From an uncultured Pseudomonadota bacterium (GTDB taxonomy: Bacteria; Bdellovibrionota_B; Oligoflexia; Oligoflexales; CAIYRB01), in contig CAIWTN010000185.1 in the NCBI GenBank assembly GCA_903915625.1, positions 1 to 64,000 of the forward strand: 64,000 bases of DNA. The letters run 5' to 3'. A model generated the notes under the pieces. It saw nothing but the letters and a program-made list of their open reading frames with translations, had not been told where the DNA came from and made no database searches. The position numbers were made by a program, and so were the translations under genes. This document shows, one piece after another, positions 4,036 to 51,311 of this stretch. How positions within the stretch are numbered: the stretch's first letter is position 1; the number at the start of each line of letters is the position of its first letter.

Positions 4036-5019
4036 ATGAGTAAATCTCAACCACGCGCAGCCATTATAGGGGCCGGGGTCTGCGGCTTGAATTGCGCACG
4101 GCATTTAAACCAGCACGGGTGGGACGTTGACGTCTATGACAAAGGTCGAGGCATCGGCGGCAGATTAGCTGTCAAACGCATTGATGGCCTCGGTAGCGTT
4201 GATTTAGGCGCTCAATTCATGACCGCATTGACGCCTGAATTCATCTCACTTTTGAGCGATGAGGAAAAGCAGGGGCGCGTTAGGCCCTGGGGTGCCCGCA
4301 TCGCCTACATTCATTCAAAAGCGCATGAGCAAGCTAGCTCGCAAATCCGTTGGATTGGGACTCCCGGAATGAATGCCTGGTTAGAGTCGGTGTGGCCTCG
4401 CACGCAAATTAAATTCAATCAGCAGATCGATAAGGTCACGCGGGGCTCAGATGGTCGCTGGATCTTAGGCGGGACTACGACAGCGCCCTATGACTGCGTC
4501 ATACTGGCTATGCCACCTAAGCAAGCGGCGGATCTCGCTCGCGACACACCTCTTGAGGAAGCGTTACGCGCAGTGCCGATGACCCCGTGCTGGGCTGCCT
4601 TGGCCCTATTTGACCAACCATTATCAGTCGACTTTGATGCGGCGTTTATCCGCATCGGCGGCCTCGATTGGATTGCAGCCAATCACACCAAACCTGGTCG
4701 CACGCCTCACCCTGCTGCATGGACTCTCCATGCTGGCGCAGATCTTTCTAATGAACTACTCGAGAAGACCACTGAGCAGGTCGCTCCCCGACTGCTCAGC
4801 GCCCTGGCCGAAGCCCTGGGGACTAAGTTACCCAACGGTCACATCCCTCTAACCCATCGCTGGCGTTATGCGGCACCCACCGCAGCCCAGCCTACCGGAG
4901 TCTTATGGAACCCAGACTTGGGCATTGGGGCCGGTGGCGACTGGGCTGTCGGTGGACGAGTGGAGGGTGCCTTCACGGCAGGTCGATTACTCGCAGAGGC
5001 CGTGGTCGCTCCACGCTGA
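4036..5019 (+). CDS. FAD-dependent oxidoreductase, renalase-like
   Basis: 327 aa from ATG 4036; GGAG lies ten bases upstream, and the track start is a TTG five codons earlier inside that region. The N-terminus has the dinucleotide-binding motif AAIIGAGVCGLNCA followed by the ADP-ribose acid in VYDKGRGIGGRL, a typical renalase/amine-oxidase signature. The C-terminal FAD-contact region is LGIGAGGDWAVGGRVEGAFTAG. Bacterial renalases oxidise wrong isomers of NAD(P)H; this family also contains proteins of unknown substrate. No obvious operon partner; tRNA-Ser lies downstream. Confidence 0.85.
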   Translation: MSKSQPRAAIIGAGVCGLNCARHLNQHGWDVDVYDKGRGIGGRLAVKRIDGLGSVDLGAQFMTALTPEFISLLSDEEKQGRVRPWGARIAYIHSKAHEQASSQIRWIGTPGMNAWLESVWPRTQIKFNQQIDKVTRGSDGRWILGGTTTAPYDCVILAMPPKQAADLARDTPLEEALRAVPMTPCWAALALFDQPLSVDFDAAFIRIGGLDWIAANHTKPGRTPHPAAWTLHAGADLSNELLEKTTEQVAPRLLSALAEALGTKLPNGHIPLTHRWRYAAPTAAQPTGVLWNPDLGIGAGGDWAVGGRVEGAFTAGRLLAEAVVAPR

Positions 5020-5113
5020 CCTTGCGTCAGCTAATAAAATACAATTATCTCGTATGGTTACAAAAAATCCACACGGACCGGCGAAGAGTCTTAGATATTT
5101 CGATAAATTTGCG

Positions 5114-5142
5114 GTGAAAACTCCGTCACTTCCGGCTATAAC
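5114..5142 (+). promoter_or_regulatory. Sigma-70-type promoter of tRNA-Ser
   Basis: GTGAAA (5114-5119) and TATAAC (5137-5142) are separated by 17 bases, and the mature tRNA 5' end follows 11 bases later. The -35 box matches consensus at four of six positions. The position next to the tRNA supports the call. Confidence 0.5.
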
Positions 5143-5153
5143 CTGAGGCCCGT

Positions 5154-5243
<90 letters not shown>

Positions 5244-5370
5244 CCCCCAAGTTTCCGAATTAATTCCAGAAATACCCCCCGCAAACACTGCTGATGCTGC
5301 TTCGGCTGCAGAAAACCTGCTGTGCCGTAAGCTACTTAAGTTCAGCTGGCGTAAACTCCAGTAAATTGGT

Positions 5371-5423
5371 AGACATTTCCGCCAACGGAATTAATGTCTG
5401 AGAGTGGGTCTCTCTGAGAGAGA
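5371..5423 (+). promoter_or_regulatory. Two inverted repeats in the suf operon leader
   Basis: Upstream of sufB there is an interrupted hairpin, AGACATT-TCC ... GGA-att-AATGTCT (5371-5399), followed closely by the symmetric element TCTCTCT-g-AGAGAGA (5409-5423). The sufB start is at 5446. They could be operator half-sites for the Rrf2-type regulator encoded at the end of the operon, or mRNA structures near the ribosome site. Neither matches a consensus I can name. Confidence 0.4.
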
Positions 5424-5445
5424 GCCTATGGACTTGGAGGTCAAC

Positions 5446-6891
5446 ATGACTTCGGACGCTGCGACGCAGTCGTTCTCAAACCGCGAATACAAGTATGGCT
5501 TCGTCACCGATGTGGAAGCGGATGCTTTCCCTAAGGGACTGGATGAAGATGTCATCCGCCGACTTTCGCAAATCAAGAACGAGCCCGATTTTGTCCTCGA
5601 GTTCCGACTCAAGGCTTTTCGTTACTGGCAAAAGATGGAGGTACCGCAGTGGGCGCACGTCAATTACCCACCGATCGACTTCCAAGATATTCGCTATTAT
5701 TCGGCGCCTAAAAAGAAAGCGCCTGGTCCCAAGAGCCTCGACGAGGTCGATGCTGAAATTATCGATACCTTTAATCGCTTGGGCATCCCGCTCGCCGAGC
5801 AAAAACGCCTTACTGGCGTGGCCGTAGATGCTGTCTTTGACTCGGTCTCCGTAGCAACGACTCACAAAGAAGAACTAGCCAAGCATGGGGTGATCTTCTG
5901 TTCTTTTTCCGAAGCCCTGCGCGAACACCCAGAGCTAGTGAAGCGCTGGCTCGGCAGTGTAGTCCCATATAAAGACAACTACTACGCTGCACTTAACTCA
6001 GCAGTGTTCAGCGACGGTTCTTTTGTATACATCCCGAAAGGCGTTAGGTGTCCGCTCGAACTATCGACCTATTTCCGTATCAATGCGGCAGAAACTGGCC
6101 AGTTTGAGCGCACGCTGATCATCGCTGAAGAAGGCAGCCACGTTAGCTACCTCGAAGGCTGTACAGCTCCTATGAGGGACGAAAATCAGTTACACGCAGC
6201 TGTCGTGGAACTAGTAGCTCTAGCTAATGCCGAGATCAAATATTCGACCGTCCAAAACTGGTACGCGGGCGATAAAGAAGGCAAAGGCGGCATCTATAAT
6301 TTCGTCACCAAACGCGGCATCTGCTTAGGTGAAAGGTCGAAAATCTCCTGGACTCAGGTTGAGACCGGCTCGGCCATCACCTGGAAGTATCCAAGTGTGA
6401 TCCTGCAAGGTGATTACTCAACCGGTGAATTTTATTCCGTCGCCTTGACTAACAACAAGATGCAAGCCGACACCGGTACCAAGATGGTGCATATCGGTAA
6501 GAATACGACCAGCAAGATCGTATCCAAGGGAATTTCGGCCGACGAATCGGTCAACAGCTACCGCGGCCAGGTAAAAATCCTGCCGTCAGCAACGAATGCA
6601 CGCAACTTCTCACAGTGTGATTCCATGTTGGTTGGCAATAAATGTAGTGCCAACACCTTTCCGTATATAGAAGTGAAGAACCCCACCGCACGCGTTGAGC
6701 ATGAGGCTAGCACCTCTAAGATCAGTGCAGAGCAGGTCTTCTATTTAAAGTCTCGTGGTCTTGACGACGAAGCAGCGATTAGTTTGCTGCTGAATGGTTT
6801 CTGCAAAGAGGTATTCAAAGAATTGCCTCTGGAGTTTTCTGTTGAGGCAGTGCGCCTGCTTGAAATGAAGCTCGAAGGGAGCGTTGGTTAA
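5446..6891 (+). CDS. sufB: Fe-S cluster assembly scaffold protein SufB
   Basis: 481 aa from ATG 5446, with GGAGG five bases upstream; the track start (GTG 5404) would add 14 unsupported residues. SufB is the scaffold subunit of the cytosolic SufBCD complex that builds Fe-S clusters on the SufB/SufD pair. Typical segments are NREYKYGF at the N-terminus, [37 protein letters not shown] and the C-terminal region with [23 protein letters not shown]. First gene of a tight operon, followed one base later by sufC. Length matches the family. Confidence 0.97.
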
Positions 6892-6892
6892 T

Positions 6893-7645
6893 ATGTTAGA
6901 GATTCGTGATTTAAAAGTCGAAGTCGACGAAAAGAGTATTCTAAAGGGACTCAACCTCACGGTTAAAGAGGGCGAAGTTCATGCCATCATGGGTCCCAAT
7001 GGATCTGGCAAAAGCACCTTGTCGAAAGTCATCGCTGGACATCCAGACTATAAAGTCAGCGGTGGTGAGCTAGCTTACGAGGTCAACTTCAAAAAGAAGA
7101 ATCTTCTCGATTTAAGTCCAGACGAACGTGCTCGCGAAGGCATCTTCCTCGCCTATCAATATCCAGTGGAAGTGCCTGGCGTTAACAATGCCGAATTCCT
7201 GCGCGCTGCCTTCAATGCCGCTGTCCGCCACCAAGGCGGCGAAGAGATGGATCCACTCGATTTTGATACATACTTACGAGAAAAAGTCCGCTATCTCGGC
7301 ATGAATGAGAAGTTCATCGACAGGCAACTAAACGTCGATTTCTCTGGTGGAGAAAAGAAACGCAACGAGATCCTCCAGATGGCGGTCCTCTCCCCTCGCC
7401 TATCGATCCTCGACGAGACCGATTCCGGCCTCGACGTTGACTCGCTGCGCTTAGTGTCCGAGGGCGTCAACAAGCTACGGACTGAGAACAACGCACTCAT
7501 ACTCATCACTCACTATCAGCGTATTCTCAACTACATCGTGCCAGACTATGTGCACGTATTAGCCGGTGGCCGCATTATCAAGAGCGGCGATAAAAATCTG
7601 GCTCTGGAGATTGAGGAACGCGGTTACGACTGGCTGCTGCAATAA
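6893..7645 (+). CDS. sufC: Fe-S cluster assembly ATPase SufC
   Basis: 250 aa from ATG 6893, with GAAGGGAG upstream and one base after the sufB stop. SufC is the ABC-type ATPase that drives the SufB/SufD scaffold. Walker A is GPNGSGKST near residue 35, the signature is FSGGEKKRNE near 146, and Walker B is SILDETDSGLD near 170, the SufC-typical form. The C-terminal HYQRILNYIVPDYVHVL segment is also characteristic. No transmembrane part, as expected for this cytosolic ATPase. Confidence 0.97.
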   Translation: MLEIRDLKVEVDEKSILKGLNLTVKEGEVHAIMGPNGSGKSTLSKVIAGHPDYKVSGGELAYEVNFKKKNLLDLSPDERAREGIFLAYQYPVEVPGVNNAEFLRAAFNAAVRHQGGEEMDPLDFDTYLREKVRYLGMNEKFIDRQLNVDFSGGEKKRNEILQMAVLSPRLSILDETDSGLDVDSLRLVSEGVNKLRTENNALILITHYQRILNYIVPDYVHVLAGGRIIKSGDKNLALEIEERGYDWLLQ

Positions 7646-37206: not shown

Positions 37207-37258
37207 AAATAAATAGAATCTGTTGCCTGTGATTGTCGCTTTGGAAAAGGAGTTCCGA

Positions 37259-39331
37259 ATGGACGCGCAAAAACTCTTGGACCTTGTCAACAGTCGTGAA
37301 TTCGGCAAGGAATTCGCGGACCTAAACTGGTCCGGCTCGTTTCGCGACTACCTAGACATCGTCGTCGAGAGGCCTGAAGTAGCCCGTACCGCATTCCAGC
37401 GTTGTTACGACATGATCATGTCCTACGGGACCCGTACCTATACGGAATATAAGAAGGAGATTACTCACTTCACCTTCTTTGACGATCCCGTTGATAACGG
37501 CAAAGATGCGATATACGGCCTAGACGTGCATCTACAGAAATTAGTGCTGGTATTCAAAGCTGGTGCGCAGCGCTATGGACCGGAAAAACGCGTCATTTTA
37601 TTGCATGGCCCGGTTGGATCTTCTAAATCCACCATCGCACGCCTCCTTAAAAAGGGATTAGAACGCTACTCTCGCACTCCGCAAGGCGCCCTCTACACCT
37701 ACGTGTGGCGTAATCTTTCCGACATCGTTGGCATGGAAGACGTGATGCCAGATCCGATGCATGGCGAGCCTCTGCACCTGATTCCGGTCGAAAGACGGGA
37801 TGCAGTGCTACGCGCATTGAATCAAAATCGCGACCGCAGTCGGCAGGTCTTCATAGAGGGCGATATCAACCCAGCAAGCCGCTATGTTTACCGCGCTCTC
37901 ATGGAGCATTACCGCGGTGACTGGGAGAAGATGCTCGAGAACCACGTAGAAGTCCGCCGCCTAGTGCTATCTGAGCGTGACCGCGTCGGTATCGGCACCT
38001 ACCAGCCTAAAGACGAAAAGAACCAGGACTCAACTGAGCTCACCGGCGACATTAACTACCGCAAGATCGCTGAATACGGCTCTGACTCAGATCCTCGGGC
38101 CTTCAATTTTGACGGTGAATTCAATATCGCCAATCGCGGCATTGTCGAGTTCATCGAGGTTTTGAAGCTGGACGTCGCCTTCCTTTATGACTTATTGACG
38201 GCGAGCCAGGAACATAAGATCAAACCGAAGAAGTTCGCGCAGTGTGATATCGACGAAGTGATCATCGGGCATACCAACGAACCGGAATTCAAAAAGCTAC
38301 AGAACAACGAGTTCATGGAAGCGCTACGCGACCGGACGATCAAGATCGACGTCCCCTACATTACAAAGCTTCAAGAAGAGATCAAGATCTACGAGAAGGA
38401 CTTCAACTCGGTATCCGTGCCCCACATTCATATCGCTCCGCATACGCTTGAAATGGCCGGCATGTGGTCCATCTTGACTCGCCTTGAAGAGCCTAAAAAA
38501 GCCAACTTGACCCTGATGCAAAAGTTGAAGCTTTATAACGGCAAGACGACTCAGCAGTTCACTGAAGACAACATCAAGGAACTGCGCAAAGAGGCGAAGC
38601 GCGAGGGTATGGATGGCATTTCGCCACGCTACGTGCAGGATAAAATTTCAAACGCATTAGTGGTCGATAAGGGCGGCGGCTGTATCAACCCGTTCATTGT
38701 CCTCAATGAACTAGACTCAGGCCTCAAGGCGCATTCGCTGATCAACAACGAAGAGATTCGCAAACACTACCGCGAACTCCTCTCCGAAGTGAAACGCGAG
38801 TACGAGGATATCGTCAAACACGAAGTCCAGCGTGCCATCTCCGCCGACGAGTCTGCGATCGACAAGTTGTGCGGCAACTATATCGACAACGTCAAAGCCT
38901 ACGTACAGCGTGAAAAGGTGCGCAACCCATTCACGGGGGCCGACGAAGAGCCCGATGAGCGCCTCATGCGCGCGATCGAAGAGAAGATCGACATCTCCGA
39001 GAGCCGCAAAGACGACTTCCGGCGTGAGATCATGAACTATATCGGCGCATTGGCTTTGGAAAAACGCTCTTTTGACTTCCGCACCAATGAGCGCCTCCAC
39101 CGCGCCCTAGAGCTTAAACTTTTCGAAGATCAAAAAGATACGATCAAGCTAACGACCCTGGTATCCAGCGTCGTCGACCGGGAAACACAGGCTAAAATCG
39201 ACGTGGTTAAAAATCGCCTGATTAAAAACTACGGCTACTGTGAGATCTGCTCTAGCGATGCGCTAAGCTTCGTAGCGAGCATATTCGCCCGCGGCGACGT
39301 GACCAAAGCTGACAAGGACAAACAGCCTTAA
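37259..39331 (+). CDS. prkA: PrkA-family serine protein kinase / AAA ATPase
   Basis: 690 aa from ATG 37259, AAGGAG six bases upstream; the track start 12 codons earlier lacks this. PrkA has an N-terminal AAA domain with Walker [10 protein letters not shown] near residue 118, the family segment [27 protein letters not shown], and [23 protein letters not shown]; the C-terminal half is the kinase-like PrkA domain. In E. coli YeaG acts in nitrogen and other stresses; in Bacillus PrkA affects sporulation. Recent work suggests Lon-like peptidase activity for some. First gene of prkA-yeaH-spoVR. Confidence 0.96.
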
Positions 39332-39352
39332 GACTGAGAAAAGAGGTCGCAA

Positions 39353-40462
39353 ATGCCGATGCACATGGAATCGGACCTCAACCGGTTCCGCAAGATCGTT
39401 CGCGGGAAGATCAAGAAGGAGCTTCGCCGCTTCATCTCCTCCGGCGACTTGATTGGACGGCAGGGCAAAAAACAAGTGACGATCCCCTTACCTAGGATCG
39501 ACATTCCTCATTTCCAGTACGGCTCGAATGAGCAAGGCGGCGTTGGGCAAGGTAACGGCGAGGTCGGCGACCAAGTAGGTCAAGGTGACCCGCAACCAGG
39601 CGAGGGTCAGGCCGGAGACTCTGCTGGTCAGCATAGTCTTGAAGTGGATGTCACCTTGCAAGAATTGGCGGAGATCCTCGGCGAGGAACTCGAACTCCCC
39701 AACATTGAAAACAAGGGCAAGAAAAACATCGAGGACAAGCAGTATAAGTACACTGGTATCCTCAAACAGGGTCCGGAGTCGCTTAGGCACTTCAAGCGTA
39801 CTTATAAAGAGGCTCTGCGCCGCGCCATCTCTTCTGGCAATTACGACCCAGAAAATCCTGTCATCATCCCAAGAAAAGAAGATAAGCGCTACAGGTCCTA
39901 CCGAGTCTACAACCTGCCGGTAGCAAATGCCGCGATCATCTACATGATGGATGTTTCGGGGTCCATGGGGGATGAGCAGAAGGAAATCGTTCGGCTCACT
40001 AGTTTTTGGCTAGATACTTGGTTATCGACGCAGTATGCCGGCCTAGAGCGACGCTACATCATTCATGATGCCACGGCGCGCGAAGTCGATCAGCAGACGT
40101 TCTACCGGACTAAAGAGTCGGGTGGGACCTTGATCAGTTCGGCGTACCGATTGGCTCAGAAGATGATTGAAGAGTCATTTGATCCGGCGGAATGGAATAT
40201 CTACTTATTCCACTTTTCTGACGGCGACAATTGGTCGGGCAACGACACCGCCGAGTGCATGAAGATCCTGGAGGGCCAATTAATTCCAGCCTCCAATCTA
40301 TTCGCCTATGGCCAGGTCGAATCTCGCTATGGATCTGGTCAATTTTTGCGCGACTTACAGAAGCACTTTGGCGATACATCAAATAAAATCACGCTATCTC
40401 AAATTAAAGATCGAGATGCGATAGTAGACGCTCTCAAAACGTTTCTTGGCAAAGGCAAATAA
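39353..40462 (+). CDS. yeaH: YeaH/YhbH-family protein (DUF444, von Willebrand A-like)
   Basis: 369 aa, ATG 39353 with AGAGG upstream. The N-terminal third is basic and contains a Gly/Gln-rich linker ([19 protein letters not shown]). The C-terminal part is a VWA-like domain with the MIDAS-type motif [14 protein letters not shown] near residue 200 and [14 protein letters not shown] near 285. It is the constant companion of PrkA and SpoVR and probably forms a complex with PrkA, comparable with AAA/VWA pairs. The spoVR start is four bases after its stop. Confidence 0.94.
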
Positions 40463-40466
40463 GTCT

Positions 40467-41960
40467 ATGCATGGTTACAATACCCAACTGACGCCAGAGC
40501 TTGAAGAGGTCGCCGCGCGGCTGGCTGATGCAGCACGTGCAGCCGGCCTAGACTTCTTTGATACGATCTTTGAATTGGTGGACTACAAGCAACTGAATGA
40601 GATCGCGGCATATGGTGGATTCCCGACGCGCTATCCCCACTGGCGCTGGGGTATGGAATACGAGCGACTGTCTAAAAGCTACACCTACGGTCTGTCGATT
40701 ATCTATGAAATGGTCATCAACAACGACCCCTGCTACGCCTATCTCTTGCGTGCAAATGACATGGTCTACCAAAAGACCGTAATTGCTCATGTTTATGGCC
40801 ACTGCGACTTTTTCAAAAATAATTATTGGTTTAGCAAGACCAATCGGAAAATGCTCAATCAAATGGCGAATCATGCCGTTTTAATGAGAAAATTTATCGA
40901 TGAAGTCGGACAAGACGAAGTCGAGTCTTTTATTGATACCTGCCTCTCCCTAGAAAACCTGATCGATATTCACTCGCCCTTCAAAGCTCAGCCGAAAAAG
41001 AGTGAAGACCAAGACGAATACGGTCGCCCAAAACAGCCATCTAAAATCAAAGCCAAGTCCTATATGGACAACTATATTAATCCCGCCGAGTTCATGGAAT
41101 ATCAGCGGCGCAAGCAGGTTGAAGAGGCCGAAAAGGTCAAAGGCTTCCCAGAAAACCCCGAGCGGGATGTACTCAAATTTCTAATAGACCATGCACCGAT
41201 GTCTAGCTGGGAAAAGCGCGTCCTTGGGATCATTCGGGATGAGTCCTATTATTTTGCGCCGCAAGCACAGACCAAAATTCTCAATGAGGGATGGGCTACC
41301 TATTGGCATAGCAAAATGATGACTCAGATCGCCCCCCTCCACGAGAGCGAGATCATCGACTACTGCGATCACTTCGCAGGTGTGGTGGCATCCCACCCAG
41401 GCGGCCTTAACCCCTATAAACTCGGCGTTGAATTGCTGCGACACATCGAACGCAGATGGGACCGAGGCCAGTTCGGGATCGATTATCTACACTGTGATGA
41501 TCCCAAAACGCGCTCAGAGTGGAATAAAAATCTTGGCCTAGGAAAACAAAAGCTCCTTGAGGTGCGTCGTATCCATAACGACATCACCTTCCTAGACGAG
41601 TTCTTGGACGAGGACTTCTGCCACGAATCGAAGATGTTCCTATACGATTACGACCGGCGCTCGAATCGGCATGTGATCTCGAGTCGCGACTTCCGCGAGA
41701 TAAAACAACGCTTATTGCAGCAGCTGACCAACTTCGGCCAACCGATTATCAGGGTCGTCGATGGCAACTTCCGCAATCGCGGCGAGCTCCTCCTCACTCA
41801 CAGTCATGAGGGAGCTGATTTAAAACACGATGCGACCCTAGAGACTTTGAAGAATCTACACCGTATTTGGAAGCGACCGGTACACATCGATACCTTGTTC
41901 GAAGAGGTTAAAAGAAGGATCTCCTATGACGGTACGAACCACCAGATTGAGAAAATCTGA
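40467..41960 (+). CDS. SpoVR-family protein
   Basis: 497 aa from ATG 40467; the track start (TTG 40446) lies inside yeaH. The SpoVR family signature is present throughout: GGFPTRYPHWRWGMEYERLSKSYTYGLSIIYEMVINNDPCYAYL near the N-terminus (only part quoted as GGFPTRYPHWRWGMEYERL), VIAHVYGHCDFFKNNYWF, ILNEGWATYWHSKMM and GFNPYKLG-like HPGGLNPYKLG. SpoVR is needed for spore cortex in Bacillus; its role in non-sporing bacteria with PrkA/YeaH is stress related and undefined. Its 3' end overlaps the next gene by 35 bases. Confidence 0.95.
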   Translation: MHGYNTQLTPELEEVAARLADAARAAGLDFFDTIFELVDYKQLNEIAAYGGFPTRYPHWRWGMEYERLSKSYTYGLSIIYEMVINNDPCYAYLLRANDMVYQKTVIAHVYGHCDFFKNNYWFSKTNRKMLNQMANHAVLMRKFIDEVGQDEVESFIDTCLSLENLIDIHSPFKAQPKKSEDQDEYGRPKQPSKIKAKSYMDNYINPAEFMEYQRRKQVEEAEKVKGFPENPERDVLKFLIDHAPMSSWEKRVLGIIRDESYYFAPQAQTKILNEGWATYWHSKMMTQIAPLHESEIIDYCDHFAGVVASHPGGLNPYKLGVELLRHIERRWDRGQFGIDYLHCDDPKTRSEWNKNLGLGKQKLLEVRRIHNDITFLDEFLDEDFCHESKMFLYDYDRRSNRHVISSRDFREIKQRLLQQLTNFGQPIIRVVDGNFRNRGELLLTHSHEGADLKHDATLETLKNLHRIWKRPVHIDTLFEEVKRRISYDGTNHQIEKI

Positions 41961-43743: not shown

Positions 43744-44613
43744 CTATTTGCAGATTACTGCCTTGTCAAACTTAGCGATAGGCAGCTGAATGGTTTTGAC
43801 CTCGCCGACATCGATTGTGTTAGTCGGGAGGGAGGCTGTTTCTCGCATTAAAGAAGAGGCTCTTTTAAGCGCCGGCCTCACATCTTGATCCTTCATGCCC
43901 TGATTAAGCAGCTCTTCCCTAACTCTCGATAAGCCAGTGATGGCACCAGTATACAACTGAGCATCTGGCTCCTGAACCACGACAAACTGAAAGAAGAATA
44001 TGGCATCTTCCGTTTGACTATCAGCTGGTCGCGAAGTTAGCTCATTAAAATCGGCACGCGATTTGCCAACACAAGAGCCCTTACCAGCGCGATCAGAGCA
44101 TAGATACAGCCCATAAATTCCAGCGCGCTTATTATTGACAGGCAAATCAACAGTAATACCATCCGCAAGGCTGTCGAGAGACAGGGTGCGCGACGCAGCC
44201 TTTGTCGGTTTATCGCCGCCATTAACCGGCTCCAAAGCCAGCAAGACCTGGCCGCGATCACCGACCAGTGCTTTGATGGCCTCAAAATCGGCAGCATGAC
44301 AAACGTGAGTAGATTTAACGTCTACCTTAAGGGCGGTTGCACCGTCTTTATCAGTTACATAACTCACTGTGTTAAGACCGACGCGGCTCCGTCTAATTTC
44401 TGGATAATTTAGTGCCTCGGCTTCGCTCTTAGGCGATCCCGCGGACTTATGCGTACGATCCGCAGCGACCGGGGCTGAGCCCTCAGGCAAACTTTCGGCT
44501 GCTGGCGCCGCTTTCTCAGAACGTCTTAATTTTTTATTTCCAACTTTAAGCACAACTAAAAGCCCAATGATGGCCCCACCTAATAGCAACATGTTTCTAG
44601 TTCTTGGATCCAT
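43744..44613 (-). CDS. Hypothetical membrane-anchored protein of the pseudopilin operon
   Basis: 289 aa from ATG 44613, where AAGGAGG sits at an ideal distance; the track start lies 12 codons upstream. One N-terminal transmembrane helix (NMLLLGGAIIGLLVVLKVGN), a low-complexity Ala/Pro/Ser linker to about residue 75, then a periplasmic domain with three to four cysteines (STHVCHAADFE, YGLYLCSDRAGKGSCVGK, and a C-terminal AVICK). I do not recognise it. As last gene of the operon it could be an assembly or chaperone factor for the pseudopilins; that is only context. Confidence 0.7.
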   Translation of the reverse strand: MDPRTRNMLLLGGAIIGLLVVLKVGNKKLRRSEKAAPAAESLPEGSAPVAADRTHKSAGSPKSEAEALNYPEIRRSRVGLNTVSYVTDKDGATALKVDVKSTHVCHAADFEAIKALVGDRGQVLLALEPVNGGDKPTKAASRTLSLDSLADGITVDLPVNNKRAGIYGLYLCSDRAGKGSCVGKSRADFNELTSRPADSQTEDAIFFFQFVVVQEPDAQLYTGAITGLSRVREELLNQGMKDQDVRPALKRASSLMRETASLPTNTIDVGEVKTIQLPIAKFDKAVICK

Positions 44614-44680
44614 CTCAGTCCTCCTTGACTCCAGATCATCAGAGCGCATTTACTTTTAGCGTTCGGTTACCAATCAAATC

Positions 44681-45394
44681 TCAATTCGCGTTCATCTTCA
44701 TATTAGCAAAATTAGTATAGGGAAGAATTATACTACGCTCCAAAACTGAAAGAGCACCAGCCTTCTGACTTGGTGACAAAAATACTGAAGTAAATGCCAC
44801 CATCAAAGGACTAGTGCCACTTTGGGTGAAGCAGGCATTAAACCCTAGGATCCCATTGATCCTGAAAGAGCTAGCCGAATTGGATCCATTATGGGGAAAC
44901 CTTACAATTCTGTTTACTGCACCAGCGCTAGTAACCGTGACAATTGGCATCAGTCCTTGAGGACAGGCCATGCAGCCATTGGGCATCGCCGTTCCAAAAT
45001 TGAGAGTGTTGAATCGAGTCATTGCATTTATACTACCTGGACTGACGCAGCCACTGGTATAGGTTTTAGTTTCCAAAGTCCCCGCCATACCGTGCGCCAC
45101 GGTAAGTTTCAAACTAGGACAATTAGTTGTACAAGGAGCGTTGGATTGGGACAACAGACTATAACTTGCACGAGCATTCCAACCAATTCGCAGACTATTC
45201 AGAAACTCCTCAACTTCACTCTTCACATCTGCACGCAACGATTCTTGTGCCTTTGAACGATTCACGCTAATAAAAAAAGAAATAGCTGCATACATGATTA
45301 TGGCCACAATGCCAGTGGCCATGACGAGCTCGATGATGGTCATCCCCAGCTGACTGTTCCTATTTAAAAATCTGCTCTGCTCAAAGCGCCACAT
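44681..45394 (-). CDS. Type IV pilin-like / pseudopilin minor subunit
   Basis: 237 aa. The prepilin-peptidase site is clear: after a 17-residue leader rich in Arg and Asn, ...NSQLG|MTIIELVMATGIVAIIMYAAISFF has the Gly at -1, Glu at +5 and a long hydrophobic helix. The globular part contains six cysteines (APCTTNCPS, SGCVSPG, NGCMACPQG and NACFTQ) and so is probably disulfide-bonded in the periplasm. The layout resembles GspJ/PilW-type minor subunits. Its start overlaps the end of the preceding pilin gene by 14 bases. Confidence 0.85.
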   Translation of the reverse strand: MWRFEQSRFLNRNSQLGMTIIELVMATGIVAIIMYAAISFFISVNRSKAQESLRADVKSEVEEFLNSLRIGWNARASYSLLSQSNAPCTTNCPSLKLTVAHGMAGTLETKTYTSGCVSPGSINAMTRFNTLNFGTAMPNGCMACPQGLMPIVTVTSAGAVNRIVRFPHNGSNSASSFRINGILGFNACFTQSGTSPLMVAFTSVFLSPSQKAGALSVLERSIILPYTNFANMKMNAN

Positions 45395-46061
45395 TAATCG
45401 CCCCAGCGCGTGATTTTACCATATTTTCCTGGTTGACTCGCATCAGCCACTTCACCGAATAGTAGACCTCTAGCCCCTTACCGGCATTTGCCACGACGGT
45501 TCCGCAAGGCACATCAATATCTTTCTGCAAATCTTTAATATGTACGACCACCTGCAAAAAAGCAGCTTTAGCCTGAATCATCGCATCCATATCATTGGAT
45601 CTCATGACGGTAGAGTTCAAATTCACCTGATAGCATGCATAAAAAGTTGAAGCTGCCTGGGCTGTAGCAGCGCTAAAAATAGGTTTACTCATGCAGCGGT
45701 TGTAGTCTGGATCTCCCGGGAATTTACCGACTATCCCCGTTTTAACGGTGCTATCTATTGATCCAATATTGGCTAAATTAATTTTGTTTATTAAATTTAT
45801 ATTACCACACCGCGCCCCTGGACCAGCTGCATTTACATAATTCTTAAATGACTGCGCTACCACTTGCACCACAGCAGCATCCATCTCCCGCGAAGCTTCG
45901 TTTGCTGTGACACGGCGTCTAGACTTATTCAAAGCACTGATGCCCATTCCCGCCGAAAGGACGAGGATGATCAAAATCGCCGCACCAACCATTGCAGACA
46001 GCAGAGTCTCGCCGGATTGGCCGTTGCGACGCATTAGCATCTTATGAAATCTAGCATTCAT
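45381..46061 (-). CDS. Pseudopilin-like protein with atypical cleavage region
   Basis: 226 aa from ATG 46061, GGAG eight bases upstream. The leader MNARFHKMLMRRNGQSG is followed by ETLLSAMVGAAILIILVLSAGMGISAL: a prepilin-like basic leader ending in Gly, then a hydrophobic helix. The usual Glu at +5 is missing and a Glu stands at +1 instead. The body has cysteines in GARCGN, YNRCMSK, FYACYQV and VPCGTV. Position between a Hint-domain protein and a standard minor pilin suggests a minor pseudopilin (GspI/PilV-like). Family assignment is moderate. Confidence 0.72.
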   Translation of the reverse strand: MNARFHKMLMRRNGQSGETLLSAMVGAAILIILVLSAGMGISALNKSRRRVTANEASREMDAAVVQVVAQSFKNYVNAAGPGARCGNINLINKINLANIGSIDSTVKTGIVGKFPGDPDYNRCMSKPIFSAATAQAASTFYACYQVNLNSTVMRSNDMDAMIQAKAAFLQVVVHIKDLQKDIDVPCGTVVANAGKGLEVYYSVKWLMRVNQENMVKSRAGAINVAL

Positions 46062-46102
46062 CGGGAGCACTCCGCATTAATACGCAACATGATCGGCATC
46101 TC

Positions 46103-48571
46103 TCACTGATTCGAAAGCAAAGATCCCAGTTTCTCCTGTAAGTAAAGGTCCCCAGTTATAAGTCCATTAGCGAGCAGAGCGTGATCATCCGGATCTGAAG
46201 TCGGAGCATCGAGTTCCAGATTTACCACCGGCAGACGGCCTCTTTCTCGACTGACCGAATCAATACGGCGCCAGTTACCTTTGGCATCTTGAATCGAATC
46301 AATATTAGTCAGGTAAATAGCTGCTTTTACACCGCTTGGTGTTAGCATTGGATGCTGTGTAGTGACTTTAACTGTGGCATCACCCGCGCGAACGACGACC
46401 AATTCGTATTTCTCTGGCCCCATGGTTGTGCGCTTAACTCGCATAGGAATATTGCGAATCGGATTCATAACCATATCGCCTTGCACTATATCAGCAACTT
46501 CTTTGTCAGTGCCGTCGCCCATACGAATTTTGGTGTGGAATTCGAAGCAGCCTAGGTTAATCCGGTTGTACATGGTGAGCTGGCAATTAGGTGAGTTAGC
46601 TGGTCGAATTTGCCCCATCGGCGTACGCCCTTGGGTGCTGCCTGCAGCAAAACAACGCGCATCGGGTGGGCAATCTGCGGTTTCGTACGGTGAGTTCGCA
46701 ACGGAAGCAATTTCCACGTTGGGATAAGCTGCGCCCATAGTGATTGAGGCATTCCATGCGTTGCCGTAATAATTAACGTAGATATTAGCTGTCTGAGTGT
46801 AGGTCCGAAATTGATTGCCAAAAAATGGGCACTGATTGACCCCTCTGGTCACCCGCGTAATGCACTGACTTGTACCACCGTAACCGTCATTAACCGTACC
46901 GGTGATTTTGTAATCCATAGGTTTGTTCATGGATGTTAGAACCGTATTCAGCTGACTGATAAAACTGTTCGGCTCAAAGGTATTCATCTGTTTGAGAGCT
47001 TTGGAATCGAGCTGCTTGAGACCTTTAGTAGCTGATAAGTCGACATCCGAACTAAGTTTATCCAATTTATTTGGATCCAATGCCTGAATTAAAGCGACCT
47101 GCTCAGCCGTTAGATTCGCTAATCCCGGTAGGCTGACTAAATCAAGCGCGGCTAAGTTTTCGCGCTGGGCCGAAGTAAGGTAAAAAAGTGCATCGCACTG
47201 CTCGATCGTCAGCGACCATAGCGGCTTGTTGCTACTTTGCTTAAAAATCCCTTTTAACATATTGACGTGTGTCGTGAATGCGTTCGTCAGCGTACCTAAC
47301 TGTATCGAATTCAGTCCGGAAATAGCAGTATTGTAGGTTGTTGCTAGTTGCGGCGATACCGAGCTGCTGGAAGCCGATCCATTATAGGCATCTACTGGAG
47401 CACAGAACTGATACTTAGAGCCATTCTTTTTGATGTTGCTCGACAAATCGGCCCCAGTGATGTCCTCAGCCTTGAGCTTTAAAGTGCTGGCGTTGACATT
47501 ACCTACGAAGTCGTAAGAGATGTTCGCACATGCTCCGGGAGCTACCGAAGCCTGATCCGTATATAAGTGACAGTCAGTCGCTGCAACGATCTGCACATTA
47601 GCGCGACATTTAGTCAGACTAAAGTCCTGATCATCGGCCGGTTTGACATAAGCATAAATTGGCATCGGAACAGTTGCCGCACCATCGACAGCAGCCAAAG
47701 GCCGCAATGTCACGACGCTGAATGGCATAACGTTTTTATCAATGCCCGTCACGCTGCGCGCTTTTGACAATAAAGAAGTTTTTGTATAGTTTTTAAGGTC
47801 TGTTTGGCTGTCATTCGAGAGCGAAGCTAAAGCGTCATTTGGCGTGTAGGCTTCAAGAGCAACTCCCGAAACATGAAGGATCATGTCCACTCGCTCGTTC
47901 GGCTGATAAACGGTCTTGCCGCCAACCAGCTCGATCCTACACTCTGGCAGAGGCATCTTAGGAACAGGCAGTGTCGCGTTCATCCGAACAGCGACATTAT
48001 TCTGCGCGGTAGAGGCGACGCTAACATTGTAGCTAGTGATCCAATATGGATAACCAGGTTTTTCAAAAAGCGGTTTATTAAACGTTACATCAGTTTGCTT
48101 GGTAAAGGTCGGGCGCACACCGTTGTCAGCAAAGGTACCCACGTCCTTCGCACTAAGAGCCGTGCTATCGGCAAACTTGAACGACACTTTCGAGAAGGCT
48201 CGGTTGCCTGACATATAGGAGGACACGCCCCAGGTGTTGGCTCCTGAAACCGCCCGCGTTTTATCGACGCTCACATTCGCAAGATATGGCTCCGGGAAAA
48301 CATATGGTAGTCCGGCAGCATAGCTAGCCATAGCCTTCCCGGTAGCCGGGTTCGGCTGATAGTTCATCAAAGCCATGATTTGAGAAAGTCCGGATACACT
48401 GGCTTGTTGAGTCCGGTCAGTAGACAACCTGGCCGAAATTTCGGTGCCAAGATTCTGAATCTTGTCCATCTCGAAATACACACCCGCGGTTATCGCACCG
48501 GCAAGTACAATAGAGAACACGATTGCGGCCGATCCACGTTCATCTCGCCAACTAAAGTTTGATTTCGTCAT
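46103..48571 (-). CDS. Pilin-like N-terminus fused to a large exported region and a C-terminal Hint (hedgehog/intein) domain
   Basis: 822 aa, ATG 48571 with AAGGGG five to six bases upstream. The N-terminus SWRDERGSAAIVFSIVLAGAITAG resembles PilX/GspK-type tip pseudopilins, which lack Glu+5. The middle ~600 residues are largely unrecognised, with several cysteines and a helical repeat around residues 440-520 (LTSAQRENLAALDLVSLPGL). From Cys675 there is a Hint domain: GCFEFHTKIRMGDGTDKEV (block A), VKVTTQHPMLTPSG with the TxxH at His740 (block B), and a C-terminal VNLELD ... HALLANGLITGD. The end is not the classical His-Asn, so cleavage after Gly674, rather than full splicing, is the likeliest chemistry. 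First gene of a four-gene pseudopilin operon. Confidence 0.8.
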   Translation of the reverse strand: MTKSNFSWRDERGSAAIVFSIVLAGAITAGVYFEMDKIQNLGTEISARLSTDRTQQASVSGLSQIMALMNYQPNPATGKAMASYAAGLPYVFPEPYLANVSVDKTRAVSGANTWGVSSYMSGNRAFSKVSFKFADSTALSAKDVGTFADNGVRPTFTKQTDVTFNKPLFEKPGYPYWITSYNVSVASTAQNNVAVRMNATLPVPKMPLPECRIELVGGKTVYQPNERVDMILHVSGVALEAYTPNDALASLSNDSQTDLKNYTKTSLLSKARSVTGIDKNVMPFSVVTLRPLAAVDGAATVPMPIYAYVKPADDQDFSLTKCRANVQIVAATDCHLYTDQASVAPGACANISYDFVGNVNASTLKLKAEDITGADLSSNIKKNGSKYQFCAPVDAYNGSASSSSVSPQLATTYNTAISGLNSIQLGTLTNAFTTHVNMLKGIFKQSSNKPLWSLTIEQCDALFYLTSAQRENLAALDLVSLPGLANLTAEQVALIQALDPNKLDKLSSDVDLSATKGLKQLDSKALKQMNTFEPNSFISQLNTVLTSMNKPMDYKITGTVNDGYGGTSQCITRVTRGVNQCPFFGNQFRTYTQTANIYVNYYGNAWNASITMGAAYPNVEIASVANSPYETADCPPDARCFAAGSTQGRTPMGQIRPANSPNCQLTMYNRINLGCFEFHTKIRMGDGTDKEVADIVQGDMVMNPIRNIPMRVKRTTMGPEKYELVVVRAGDATVKVTTQHPMLTPSGVKAAIYLTNIDSIQDAKGNWRRIDSVSRERGRLPVVNLELDAPTSDPDDHALLANGLITGDLYLQEKLGSLLSNQ

Positions 48572-48873: not shown

Positions 48874-50226
48874 TTGAAGACTAACATTCTGGCCATCCTT
48901 ATCGGAGCAATGGCTCCTCTGTCGGCGCAAGCCACCACCGTCGCAATCATCGATTCGGGATTTGATTACGAGCACGAAGCATTGCAAGGCAAAGTCTGGA
49001 CCAACCCCGCTGAAGTCGCTGACGACACGCTTGATAACGATGGGAACGGTAAAATAGACGATGTCCACGGCTGGAACTTCGCTGACAACGACGGCCTGAT
49101 CATCGACTACAAGCTGCAAGATAGCTACGTACCTGACATCGAAAAATTCCTTGAACTGCAACTCGCAGCCACAGAAGGATCTGCAACCGAAGGCGAAAAA
49201 ATCTGGCTGAAAGAGCGCCTTGGCGACGGCGAATTCATCAAGAGACTACAGACATTCGGTGGCTATGCACACGGTACTCACGTGGCCGGAATCGTCGCTC
49301 GCGACAATCCTGGTGCGCAACTCATTGCGGCTAAGTTGATCTCGACAAAAACCTTCTTCGAAAAACTCAAACGCAAAGTCCACGCGTCGTTGGCCGAGGG
49401 CAAAGATGTAGGCTTCATCCAAGAGTTCGTAATCAAGGCCGGTATGTACGGACTAGCCATACAGCAGGCGAAGACGTTCGCGACTATCGCCGAGTATTTA
49501 CATGCTAACGGTGTGACCGTCGCAAACGGCTCATTTGGCACCGGGATGGAACAAATCCGCGGCCTTGTAGGACCCATCTTGATGGCGGTTACTAAAGGTC
49601 AGCCATCACCAGAGCTTGTTGACGAATATGCCGCGTTCTTCGTCAACCGGATCATCGCTGAACAAGCAAAGATTTTTGCTAAATACCCAGACATCCTCTT
49701 CGTCTTCGCCGCAGGCAACGACAGTTCTGATAACGACGCACTTCCCGCTGCCCCGGCTGGCGTCCGTTTGGATAACGTCATCACAGTGGGAGCCACCATT
49801 GGTAACTCTGCGATTGCACCGTTCAGCAACTTCGGTGCATCCCGCGTCGATTTGTTTGCACCAGGAGTAGGTACTAGGTCCTCTGTACCGCACCAAAACA
49901 TGTACCTACCACTCAGTGGAACGAGCATGGCTGCTCCGGAAGTGACCCGCGTCGCTGCCCTGATCAAGGACAAGAACCCTAACCTTGCAGCTAAAGATCT
50001 CCGCGACATCCTCATGGGCACGATCGATCGTAAGGATTTCCTGAAAGGTCGCTCTTACACAGAAGGCGTCGTCAATGACGAGCGTGCTGTTGCTGCTGCT
50101 GCGGGATCATTGACCACTGACATCCGTAGCGCCATCAAGTCCGCCAAGCGCGCCGTTGCCGACAAAAACCCCGTCGGCAAGTATGACGCTAAAAATGGCG
50201 ATTTCTCGTATGTGACTCCTTTCTAA
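48874..50226 (+). CDS. Secreted S8-family subtilisin-like serine protease
   Basis: 450 aa from TTG 48874 with GGGGGA eight bases upstream. The signal peptide is MKTNILAILIGAMAPLSAQA. The catalytic residues are Asp27 (AIIDSGFD), His133 (YAHGTHVAG), the oxyanion Asn282 (VFAAGND) and Ser351 (SGTSMAAP). A calcium-site-like DNDGNGKIDD lies near residue 55. The Asp to His distance is long because of an insertion (residues ~60-130). The catalytic domain follows the signal peptide with no room for the usual I9-type prodomain, which is odd. A strong terminator follows. Confidence 0.92.
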   Translation: MKTNILAILIGAMAPLSAQATTVAIIDSGFDYEHEALQGKVWTNPAEVADDTLDNDGNGKIDDVHGWNFADNDGLIIDYKLQDSYVPDIEKFLELQLAATEGSATEGEKIWLKERLGDGEFIKRLQTFGGYAHGTHVAGIVARDNPGAQLIAAKLISTKTFFEKLKRKVHASLAEGKDVGFIQEFVIKAGMYGLAIQQAKTFATIAEYLHANGVTVANGSFGTGMEQIRGLVGPILMAVTKGQPSPELVDEYAAFFVNRIIAEQAKIFAKYPDILFVFAAGNDSSDNDALPAAPAGVRLDNVITVGATIGNSAIAPFSNFGASRVDLFAPGVGTRSSVPHQNMYLPLSGTSMAAPEVTRVAALIKDKNPNLAAKDLRDILMGTIDRKDFLKGRSYTEGVVNDERAVAAAAGSLTTDIRSAIKSAKRAVADKNPVGKYDAKNGDFSYVTPF

Positions 50227-50260
50227 GCCACAGCTCTCAGTCACAGCTCTAAGTTACCGC

Positions 50261-50293
50261 AGGCCCTCAGCTATTCGCAGCTGAGGGCCTTTT
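50261..50293 (+). terminator. Rho-independent terminator of the S8 protease gene
   Basis: A perfect 12-bp stem AGGCCCTCAGCT / AGCTGAGGGCCT with a 6-base loop, followed by TTTT. Confidence 0.9.
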
Positions 50294-50420
50294 AACACGC
50301 CCCTCCCCTCTCATTGCCGACACCTATCCTCCACTTAAGCCATTATGAAGTTAGTTCCTTGCCGCCAGCCGATGTGGTAGCACTTCCGCAGCATTAGTCG
50401 GATGATGTAAGGAGATCACT

Positions 50421-51311
50421 ATGCGGCTTGGTAAAATTGTTCAATCAATTCTGACCGTTACGACCATGATCGGGAGCGCCGCAACAACCGCTTTCGCCCT
50501 ACCAATCGGACATTCCAGCGATTATTCCTATACTGAGAGCTCGTCTGTACCCGCGCTATTGGCTCCAGGAGTTAACTTTCTTGGCACCGTCGCACTGAAC
50601 AATTGCTCCGGTGCACTGGTACGATTTCGCCAATCCCACCCCGACGATCGCGCTTTAGTACTTACGAACGGACACTGCTTAGAGAGCGGCCTACCGACAC
50701 CAGGTCAAGTGATCACTGATGCGCCGTCACGCCGTACTTTTGACCTAATGAACAAAGACGCCTCGGATGTCCTGGGTACTCTCAGTGCAGAATCCATGCT
50801 CTATGGCACGATGACCGATACTGACGTAGCTCTGTACCTGCTAACGGACACGTATACCGAGATTAGCCAGCGCTACGGTGTGCAACCATTGACCGTCAGC
50901 GACAAGCATCCAACAGCTGGCGCTGCGATCAACATAGTTTCAGCTTACTGGCGCCGCACCTACACGTGCAGCATCGACAACTTTGTTTCGGAGCTTCATG
51001 AAGACGGCTGGATTTTCCGCGATGCCATCCGTTATACGGCTAAAGGTTGCGCTGTCATTGGCGGCACCTCGGGCGCGCCTATTATTGGCACCGACCCTAG
51101 TCTAGTGATCGGGATCAACAACACGATCAATGAACAAGGCGGCCGCTGCACTCGCAACAATCCTTGTGAAGTAGATCAAAATGGTTCCGTCGTGGTGAAA
51201 AAGGGTACTGGCTACGGTGAGCAGGTCTACTTGTTCTACGGCTGTTTAGACGGCACGGGTCACGGCATCGATTTGAGTCGTGCTGGCTGCAGCCTGCCCA
51301 AGCCTCAGTGA
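50421..51311 (+). CDS. Secreted trypsin/V8-like serine protease
   Basis: 296 aa, ATG 50421 with AAGGAG at ideal distance. The signal peptide ends near TTAFA. The chymotrypsin-fold triad is His85 (LVLTNGHC), Asp135 (MTDTDVALYL) and Ser217 (AVIGGTSGAPII). Several cysteines (NNCSG, TNGHC, YTCSID, KGCAV, GRCTRNNPC) suggest disulfides. It probably acts outside the cell or in the periplasm. No separate propeptide is obvious beyond about 20 residues after the signal. Second of two adjacent exported proteases. Confidence 0.9.
   Translation: MRLGKIVQSILTVTTMIGSAATTAFALPIGHSSDYSYTESSSVPALLAPGVNFLGTVALNNCSGALVRFRQSHPDDRALVLTNGHCLESGLPTPGQVITDAPSRRTFDLMNKDASDVLGTLSAESMLYGTMTDTDVALYLLTDTYTEISQRYGVQPLTVSDKHPTAGAAINIVSAYWRRTYTCSIDNFVSELHEDGWIFRDAIRYTAKGCAVIGGTSGAPIIGTDPSLVIGINNTINEQGGRCTRNNPCEVDQNGSVVVKKGTGYGEQVYLFYGCLDGTGHGIDLSRAGCSLPKPQ

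Follow-up and report, generated by a model that had tools for sequence, protein, structure and literature searches.

A Gly-Asp-type Hint domain on tip-like pilins and its dedicated four-cysteine partner in an Oligoflexales operon

The feature analysed here is a Hint domain of a Gly-Asp type that is carried on tip-like pilins and has a dedicated partner protein, encoded in an operon within a window of 64,000 nucleotides (the whole stretch of DNA that was analysed). Taken as anatomy, the reading given in an initial annotation of this DNA is largely sound. The best explanation of the whole, at a probability of about 0.55, is a minor-pilin tip complex whose Hint domain would cleave itself at Gly674/Cys675 with assistance from the partner. 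The annotation had proposed a minus-strand operon of four genes, and the corresponding open reading frames were all found, consecutive at 43744-48571 and nearly contiguous in the list of open reading frames: neighbours either overlap slightly or stand about 30 bp apart. The features are as follows.

46103..48571, minus strand: pilin-like tip protein of 822 aa with a C-terminal Hint domain (open reading frame; relatives)
48452..48571, minus strand: prepilin-like N-terminus of the 822-aa protein, DERG13/SAAIVFSIVLAGAITAGVYFEMDK, with Val and not Glu at +5 (sequence)
46127..46549, minus strand: Hint domain, residues 675-815, then a 7-residue tail (family HMM, PDB profile, AF2, Foldseek)
46547..46549, minus strand: Cys675, putative N-terminal nucleophile, directly after Gly674 (invariant in alignment A1)
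46352..46354, minus strand: His740, the block-B TxxH histidine, in TTQHPMLT (67/67 Cys-bearing members)
46148..46153, minus strand: Gly807-Asp808, in ANGLITGD, in place of the intein His-Asn (invariant in A1; 63/67 Cys-bearing members)
45381..46070, minus strand: second pilin-like protein, 229 aa from GTG, QSG/ETLLSAMV, Ser at +5 (sequence)
44681..45394, minus strand: third pilin-like protein, 237 aa, SQLG/MTIIELVM, Glu5 present (Pfam N_methyl E=0.0021, below the curated cut-off)
43744..44649, minus strand: membrane-anchored partner protein (gene 4), 301 aa, four invariant Cys, alternative start at 44613 (open reading frame; family alignment)

This arrangement is more than a product of chance, because full-length relatives of the 822-aa protein were recovered in a whole-genome search (E=7.4e-188, 1.5e-177, and 6.8e-133) and because relatives occur in 31 of 56 genomes, or in 38 of 58 when the Hint-domain profile is used. 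The initial annotation had looked to a survey of related genomes, and there the operon recurs. Dozens of proteins in the same whole-genome search shared the C-terminal domain only. A scan of the full-length protein against genome contigs returned no relative; the whole-genome search and family profiles were needed. Matching loci in the named collection came mostly from MAGs labelled Oligoflexus, Oligoflexaceae, Silvanigrella, or Proteobacteria, which makes an origin of the window in the Oligoflexia probable. The genome that holds the window also has, apart from the Hint operon, a T2SS-like operon in which five genes are pseudopilin-like, one of them GspK-like, and a pilB/pilT/pilC cluster (genes mostly named by eye from sequence, with the ATPases recognized via T2SSE matches), so that the Hint operon looks like an additional set or a type IV pilus minor-pilin set. 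A search for PilY1 (PF05567) gave no match across 56 genomes, but control genomes were likewise silent, so this silence does not count as absence. The region 48874-51311, immediately upstream of the operon and divergently transcribed, encodes one protease of the subtilase type (Peptidase_S8 E=1e-39) and one that is trypsin-like (E=8e-9). At 37223-41960, three plus-strand genes resemble, by eye only, the known stress-related trio of PrkA kinase, YeaH/DUF444 protein, and SpoVR.

The 822-aa protein opens with a prepilin-like, GspK-like segment without Glu5 (DERG/SAAIVFSIVLAGAITAGVYF), and family conservation supports the pilin-type N-terminus that had been ascribed to it. Marks of a tip cap that could be read from sequence were present, namely a class III signal, a hydrophobic helix, and no Glu5, and Glu5 was absent in about 38 of 39 readable pilin-type Hint hosts (counted by eye), with L067 as the exception. 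Of the two further pilin-like proteins claimed initially, the one from the third gene has a standard prepilin motif and is the only product of the operon that Pfam N_methyl matched, below cut-off; the other, from the second gene, had no Pfam pilin match and is pilin-like by eye only. Tip complexes of type 4 filaments have a capping subunit without Glu5, and “modular pilins” carry extra domains grafted onto pilins (PMC10191384). The 822-aa protein is like the modular pilins and the GspK/PilK tip-cap minor pilins of that account in being a large minor pilin without Glu5 and with a grafted extra domain, but unlike modular pilins its grafted domain is a Hint module rather than an adhesive domain. 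From the missing Glu5 we infer a position at the pilus tip, in agreement with the tip-cap role first proposed. The T2SSK profile (PF03934, GspK) had no match in the protein's own genome despite the GspK-like open reading frame in its T2SS-like operon, and is therefore insensitive here. For the body of the protein (residues 1-674) there was no Pfam match and no significant PDB match.

Identification of the C-terminal domain as a Hint fold is marginal from the single sequence and firm from the family. The final stretch of the protein from Cys675 comprises 148 residues; taken singly, it gave a Pfam Vint match below cut-off (E=0.0082) and nothing relevant by phmmer against the PDB, and a PT-HINT search of the own genome gave no match. 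A profile from 46 family domains, in contrast, matched BIL domains of Clostridium (2lwy) and Tetrahymena (6tmm) in the PDB, each at E=9e-12, and among the 46 members Vint was matched by 40, PT-HINT weakly by 24, and Hint by 18. The AlphaFold2 model had pLDDT 91.7 and pTM 0.85, and Foldseek placed it with BIL, intein, and hedgehog structures at probability 1.00 (6y75 E=4e-10; 2lwy TMt 0.82; 1at0 TMt 0.76). The Hint assignment made initially from the sequence is thus well supported, by the profile search as by the structure prediction. C-terminal placement is general in the family, with a median of 11 residues after the domain.

In established Hint chemistry, an N-S acyl shift occurs at the first Cys, splicing additionally needs Asn cyclisation, and hedgehog proteins stop at the first shift. 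The superfamily marks, a block A Cys or Ser and a block B TxxH, are present as C675 and H740, and the three motifs picked out in the initial annotation (Cys675, TTQHPMLT with His740, and ANGLITGD) are all in the sequence. Gly674, Cys675, His740, Asn784, His797, Gly807, and Asp808 were invariant in alignment A1. Across 67 non-redundant Cys-bearing Hint domains, a set that takes in a few PT-HINT-type domains of another lineage, the block-B His was present in all 67, Thr in 61, Gly(-1) in 63, and Gly-Asp in 63. Loss of Cys675 or His740 in orthologues would, according to the initial annotation, have told against its reading; both are conserved in the readable pilin-type members. At the site of the His-Asn of inteins and A-type BIL domains the family has (T/V)GD, then LxxQ and a short tail. 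Replacement of His-Asn by Gly-Asp makes N-terminal cleavage at Gly674/Cys675 the likely outcome, with no splicing and no Asn cyclisation expected, and family conservation and structure prediction both favor this junction, which had been named beforehand as the cleavage site. Ten relatives had His and GD without the Cys column; most are short secreted proteins and two are weak matches in L129. One of the ten, L090, is no evidence of Cys loss because its reading is N-terminally truncated. Short secreted proteins of about 260–370 aa were seen at L022, L024, and L026-L030 (the same genes as L071, L073, and L075-L079); these have kept the C-half of the Hint domain, the block-B His, and Gly-Asp and have lost the N-terminal Cys, so the Hint fold can persist without this chemistry.

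The fourth gene was correctly described at the outset as encoding a membrane-anchored, cysteine-containing protein, but it was underrated: the protein accompanies the Hint module as a conserved partner. Its product has a short N-terminal segment, one predicted transmembrane helix, and a predicted periplasmic domain. In the family alignment (A4) four Cys are invariant and a Lys after the third Cys is largely conserved. Members had no Pfam family in common and no sequence match in the PDB; the structure model is fairly confident (pLDDT 87), and comparison with known folds by Foldseek gave nothing convincing (best E=0.029, TM about 0.2). Within the window's phylum, 31 partner genes were counted at E<1e-20, and 28 of them had a Hint match no more than 3 kb away, where random placement would give 0.18; one of the 28, G022:C4, neighbours only Cys-less weak Hint relatives. 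The remaining three were at a contig end (L127), beside a large pilin without Hint (L128), and an orphan (L126). In two genomes of another lineage, the Hint hosts seen with the partner were not pilins: in G058 all three partners were beside Hint genes, and in G059 four of seven were within about 0.35 kb of Hint, with two more within about 5 kb on the same contig. In G060, two proteins have a partner-like domain and Hint in one open frame (E=4.7e-7 and 6.8e-4; whole-genome search), and two further proteins show the same combination with a weaker match to the partner (~17 bits). Lipoprotein-like products with an N-terminal partner-like domain, Cys-rich repeats, and a C-terminal Hint domain were seen at L153:2498-5950, L154:3631-6456, and L122:2777-4735 and 4778-7372. 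Because the pairing holds with non-pilin hosts and extends to fusion in G060, the gene 4 product is a dedicated partner of the Hint module, not of pilins as such; this pairing is new here and well supported. L128 is a counter-example, since its operon keeps the partner without Hint, which indicates a partner function that is not related to Hint only, and many Hint loci, those of family f12 among them, have no partner.

Hosts other than the GD-type pilins include lipoproteins (L060, L063, L065, and L083) and secreted proteins (L109 and L121) that end in the same Hint domain. Three proteins in the G058 lineage join a Tad-family pilin N-terminus to a classical Hint with terminal His-Asn: L152 (4006-4992) has TadE at 28.9 bits, over cut-off, with PT-HINT at 59.7 bits; L151 (3398-4084) has a weak Flp_Fap match with PT-HINT; and L150 (1418-2725) has PT-HINT behind an Flp-like helix, with a TadE-like gene alongside. 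These fusions apparently arose separately from the GD-type ones. Conversely, the large pilin of L128 (4803-6176), from an operon in G032 with the same layout of partner and pilins, shares ~41% identity with the Hint pilin of L050 across residues 6-315 and has a different C-terminus without Hint. This suggests that the pilin body can work without the domain, which is no proof of processing.

As we read it, the operon would encode a minor-pilin tip complex in which the two smaller pilins help to build a type IV pilus or pseudopilus and the 822-aa protein, without Glu5, forms its cap. Once this protein is exported, its Hint domain would perform an N-to-S acyl shift at Gly674/Cys675 via the block-B Thr and His, and resolution of the thioester would part the tip body from the Hint domain. 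In a domain with neither a C-terminal His-Asn nor a +1 nucleophile, splicing and C-end cleavage would not be expected. The partner would dock in the periplasm on the Hint or pre-Hint region and control or complete the cleavage step. The Hint fold, the conserved active-site residues, the pilin-like N-termini, and the linkage of the partner are computed results; tip location, cleavage, its timing, and the role of the partner are what we infer from them.

An alternative is that the Gly674 thioester is attacked by a specific acceptor, which could be a Lys or Cys residue in the partner, a different pilin, a lipid, or an amine of a surface that the tip contacts; the tip body would then be anchored covalently, in the manner of cholesterol transfer by hedgehog. 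This is possible, if doubtful. The GCF junction and the lack of His-Asn are as in hedgehog proteins, the partner is conserved with Hint across hosts, and a pre-Hint motif, C...R...G/C, is conserved; the four invariant Cys and largely conserved Lys of the partner could belong to such a transfer, but the Cys would also fit two disulfides, and the 7-residue tail leaves no lipid-recognition segment after the domain. An extended form, rather improbable as a whole, would have the Gly-Asp-type Hint and the four-Cys partner act as a two-protein surface-processing device that covalently transfers or anchors the pilus-tip body, with several carriers (minor pilins, lipoproteins, and secreted proteins) and with Hint independently grafted onto Tad-family pilins.

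The Hint fold could instead serve the tip structurally or in binding, without catalysis. The Cys-less secreted relatives, with their retained C-half, block-B His, and GD, are consistent with this, but Cys, Gly(-1), and the block-B His are retained in essentially all Cys-bearing hosts despite 30–40% identity, and we consider a non-catalytic role distinctly unlikely. It is very unlikely that the pilins serve a secretion pseudopilus with the Hint protein as an exported, self-releasing passenger rather than its tip: the N-terminus is GspK-like and relatives include Hint-bearing lipoproteins and secreted proteins, but the genome already has its own T2SS-like operon with five pseudopilins, and two pilin-like genes share the Hint operon. 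Release of a toxin by Hint was rejected as only 7 residues follow the domain, and a mobile intein was rejected on the C-terminal position and the lack of an endonuclease and a C-extein.

Among known systems, BIL types A and B (Amitai 2003; Dassa 2004) are, according to PMC5874633 and PMC7765530, self-cleaving modules of variable bacterial proteins; the latter gives the A-type a conserved His-Asn at the C-terminal end and the B-type the intein motifs except the C-terminal one. The present domain is like both in fold, size (130–155 aa), block A Cys, block B TxxH, and surface-protein hosts, and 2lwy is among its nearest structures by sequence and by fold; it is unlike both in its C-terminal position in the host, its tip-like pilin host, and its linked partner. 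It differs further from the A-type in having Gly807-Asp808 for His-Asn, with GD in 63 of 67 Cys-bearing members. The C-terminal motif is absent from it, which leaves the B-type, as described, a candidate. With hedgehog Hog/Hint (1at0, TM 0.76) it shares the C-terminal placement, the GCF junction, the absence of a C-terminal Asn, and presumably the first acyl shift only, but no sterol-recognition region is visible in the 7 residues after the domain and the host is unrelated. PT-HINT domains of polymorphic toxins belong to the same superfamily, and 24 of 46 members match them weakly, but here nothing comes after the domain that could be a toxin or another C-terminal passenger. Unlike an intein, with its in-frame insertion, C-extein, terminal Asn, and +1 nucleophile, the domain is C-terminal and has GD-L at the junction.

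A new C-type BIL domain was reported from Bdellovibrio bacteriovorus together with a “putative predator-specific domain 1” (PPS-1) (Dori-Bachash 2009, as described in PMC9185962). The Hint type described here may be the same as the C-type, the two being compared by description only, and PPS-1 may correspond to the partner family or to the pre-Hint region; no mention of pilins was seen in that account. The initial statement that no described system matches holds in so far as a full-text search of the open-access literature found no publication on a Hint-bearing pilin, but the C-type BIL, as that account has it, and modular pilins were already known.

The contacts that a bacterium makes are decided at its pilus tips, and a self-cutting tip subunit, if true, would mean that tips can be matured, released, or covalently fixed in a way that is new. 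That pilins of the T4a/T2SS type and of the Tad type both carry Hint suggests a solution reached repeatedly, and the dedicated partner is a direct handle on the action of these Hint domains, which is a question for the BIL domains as well.
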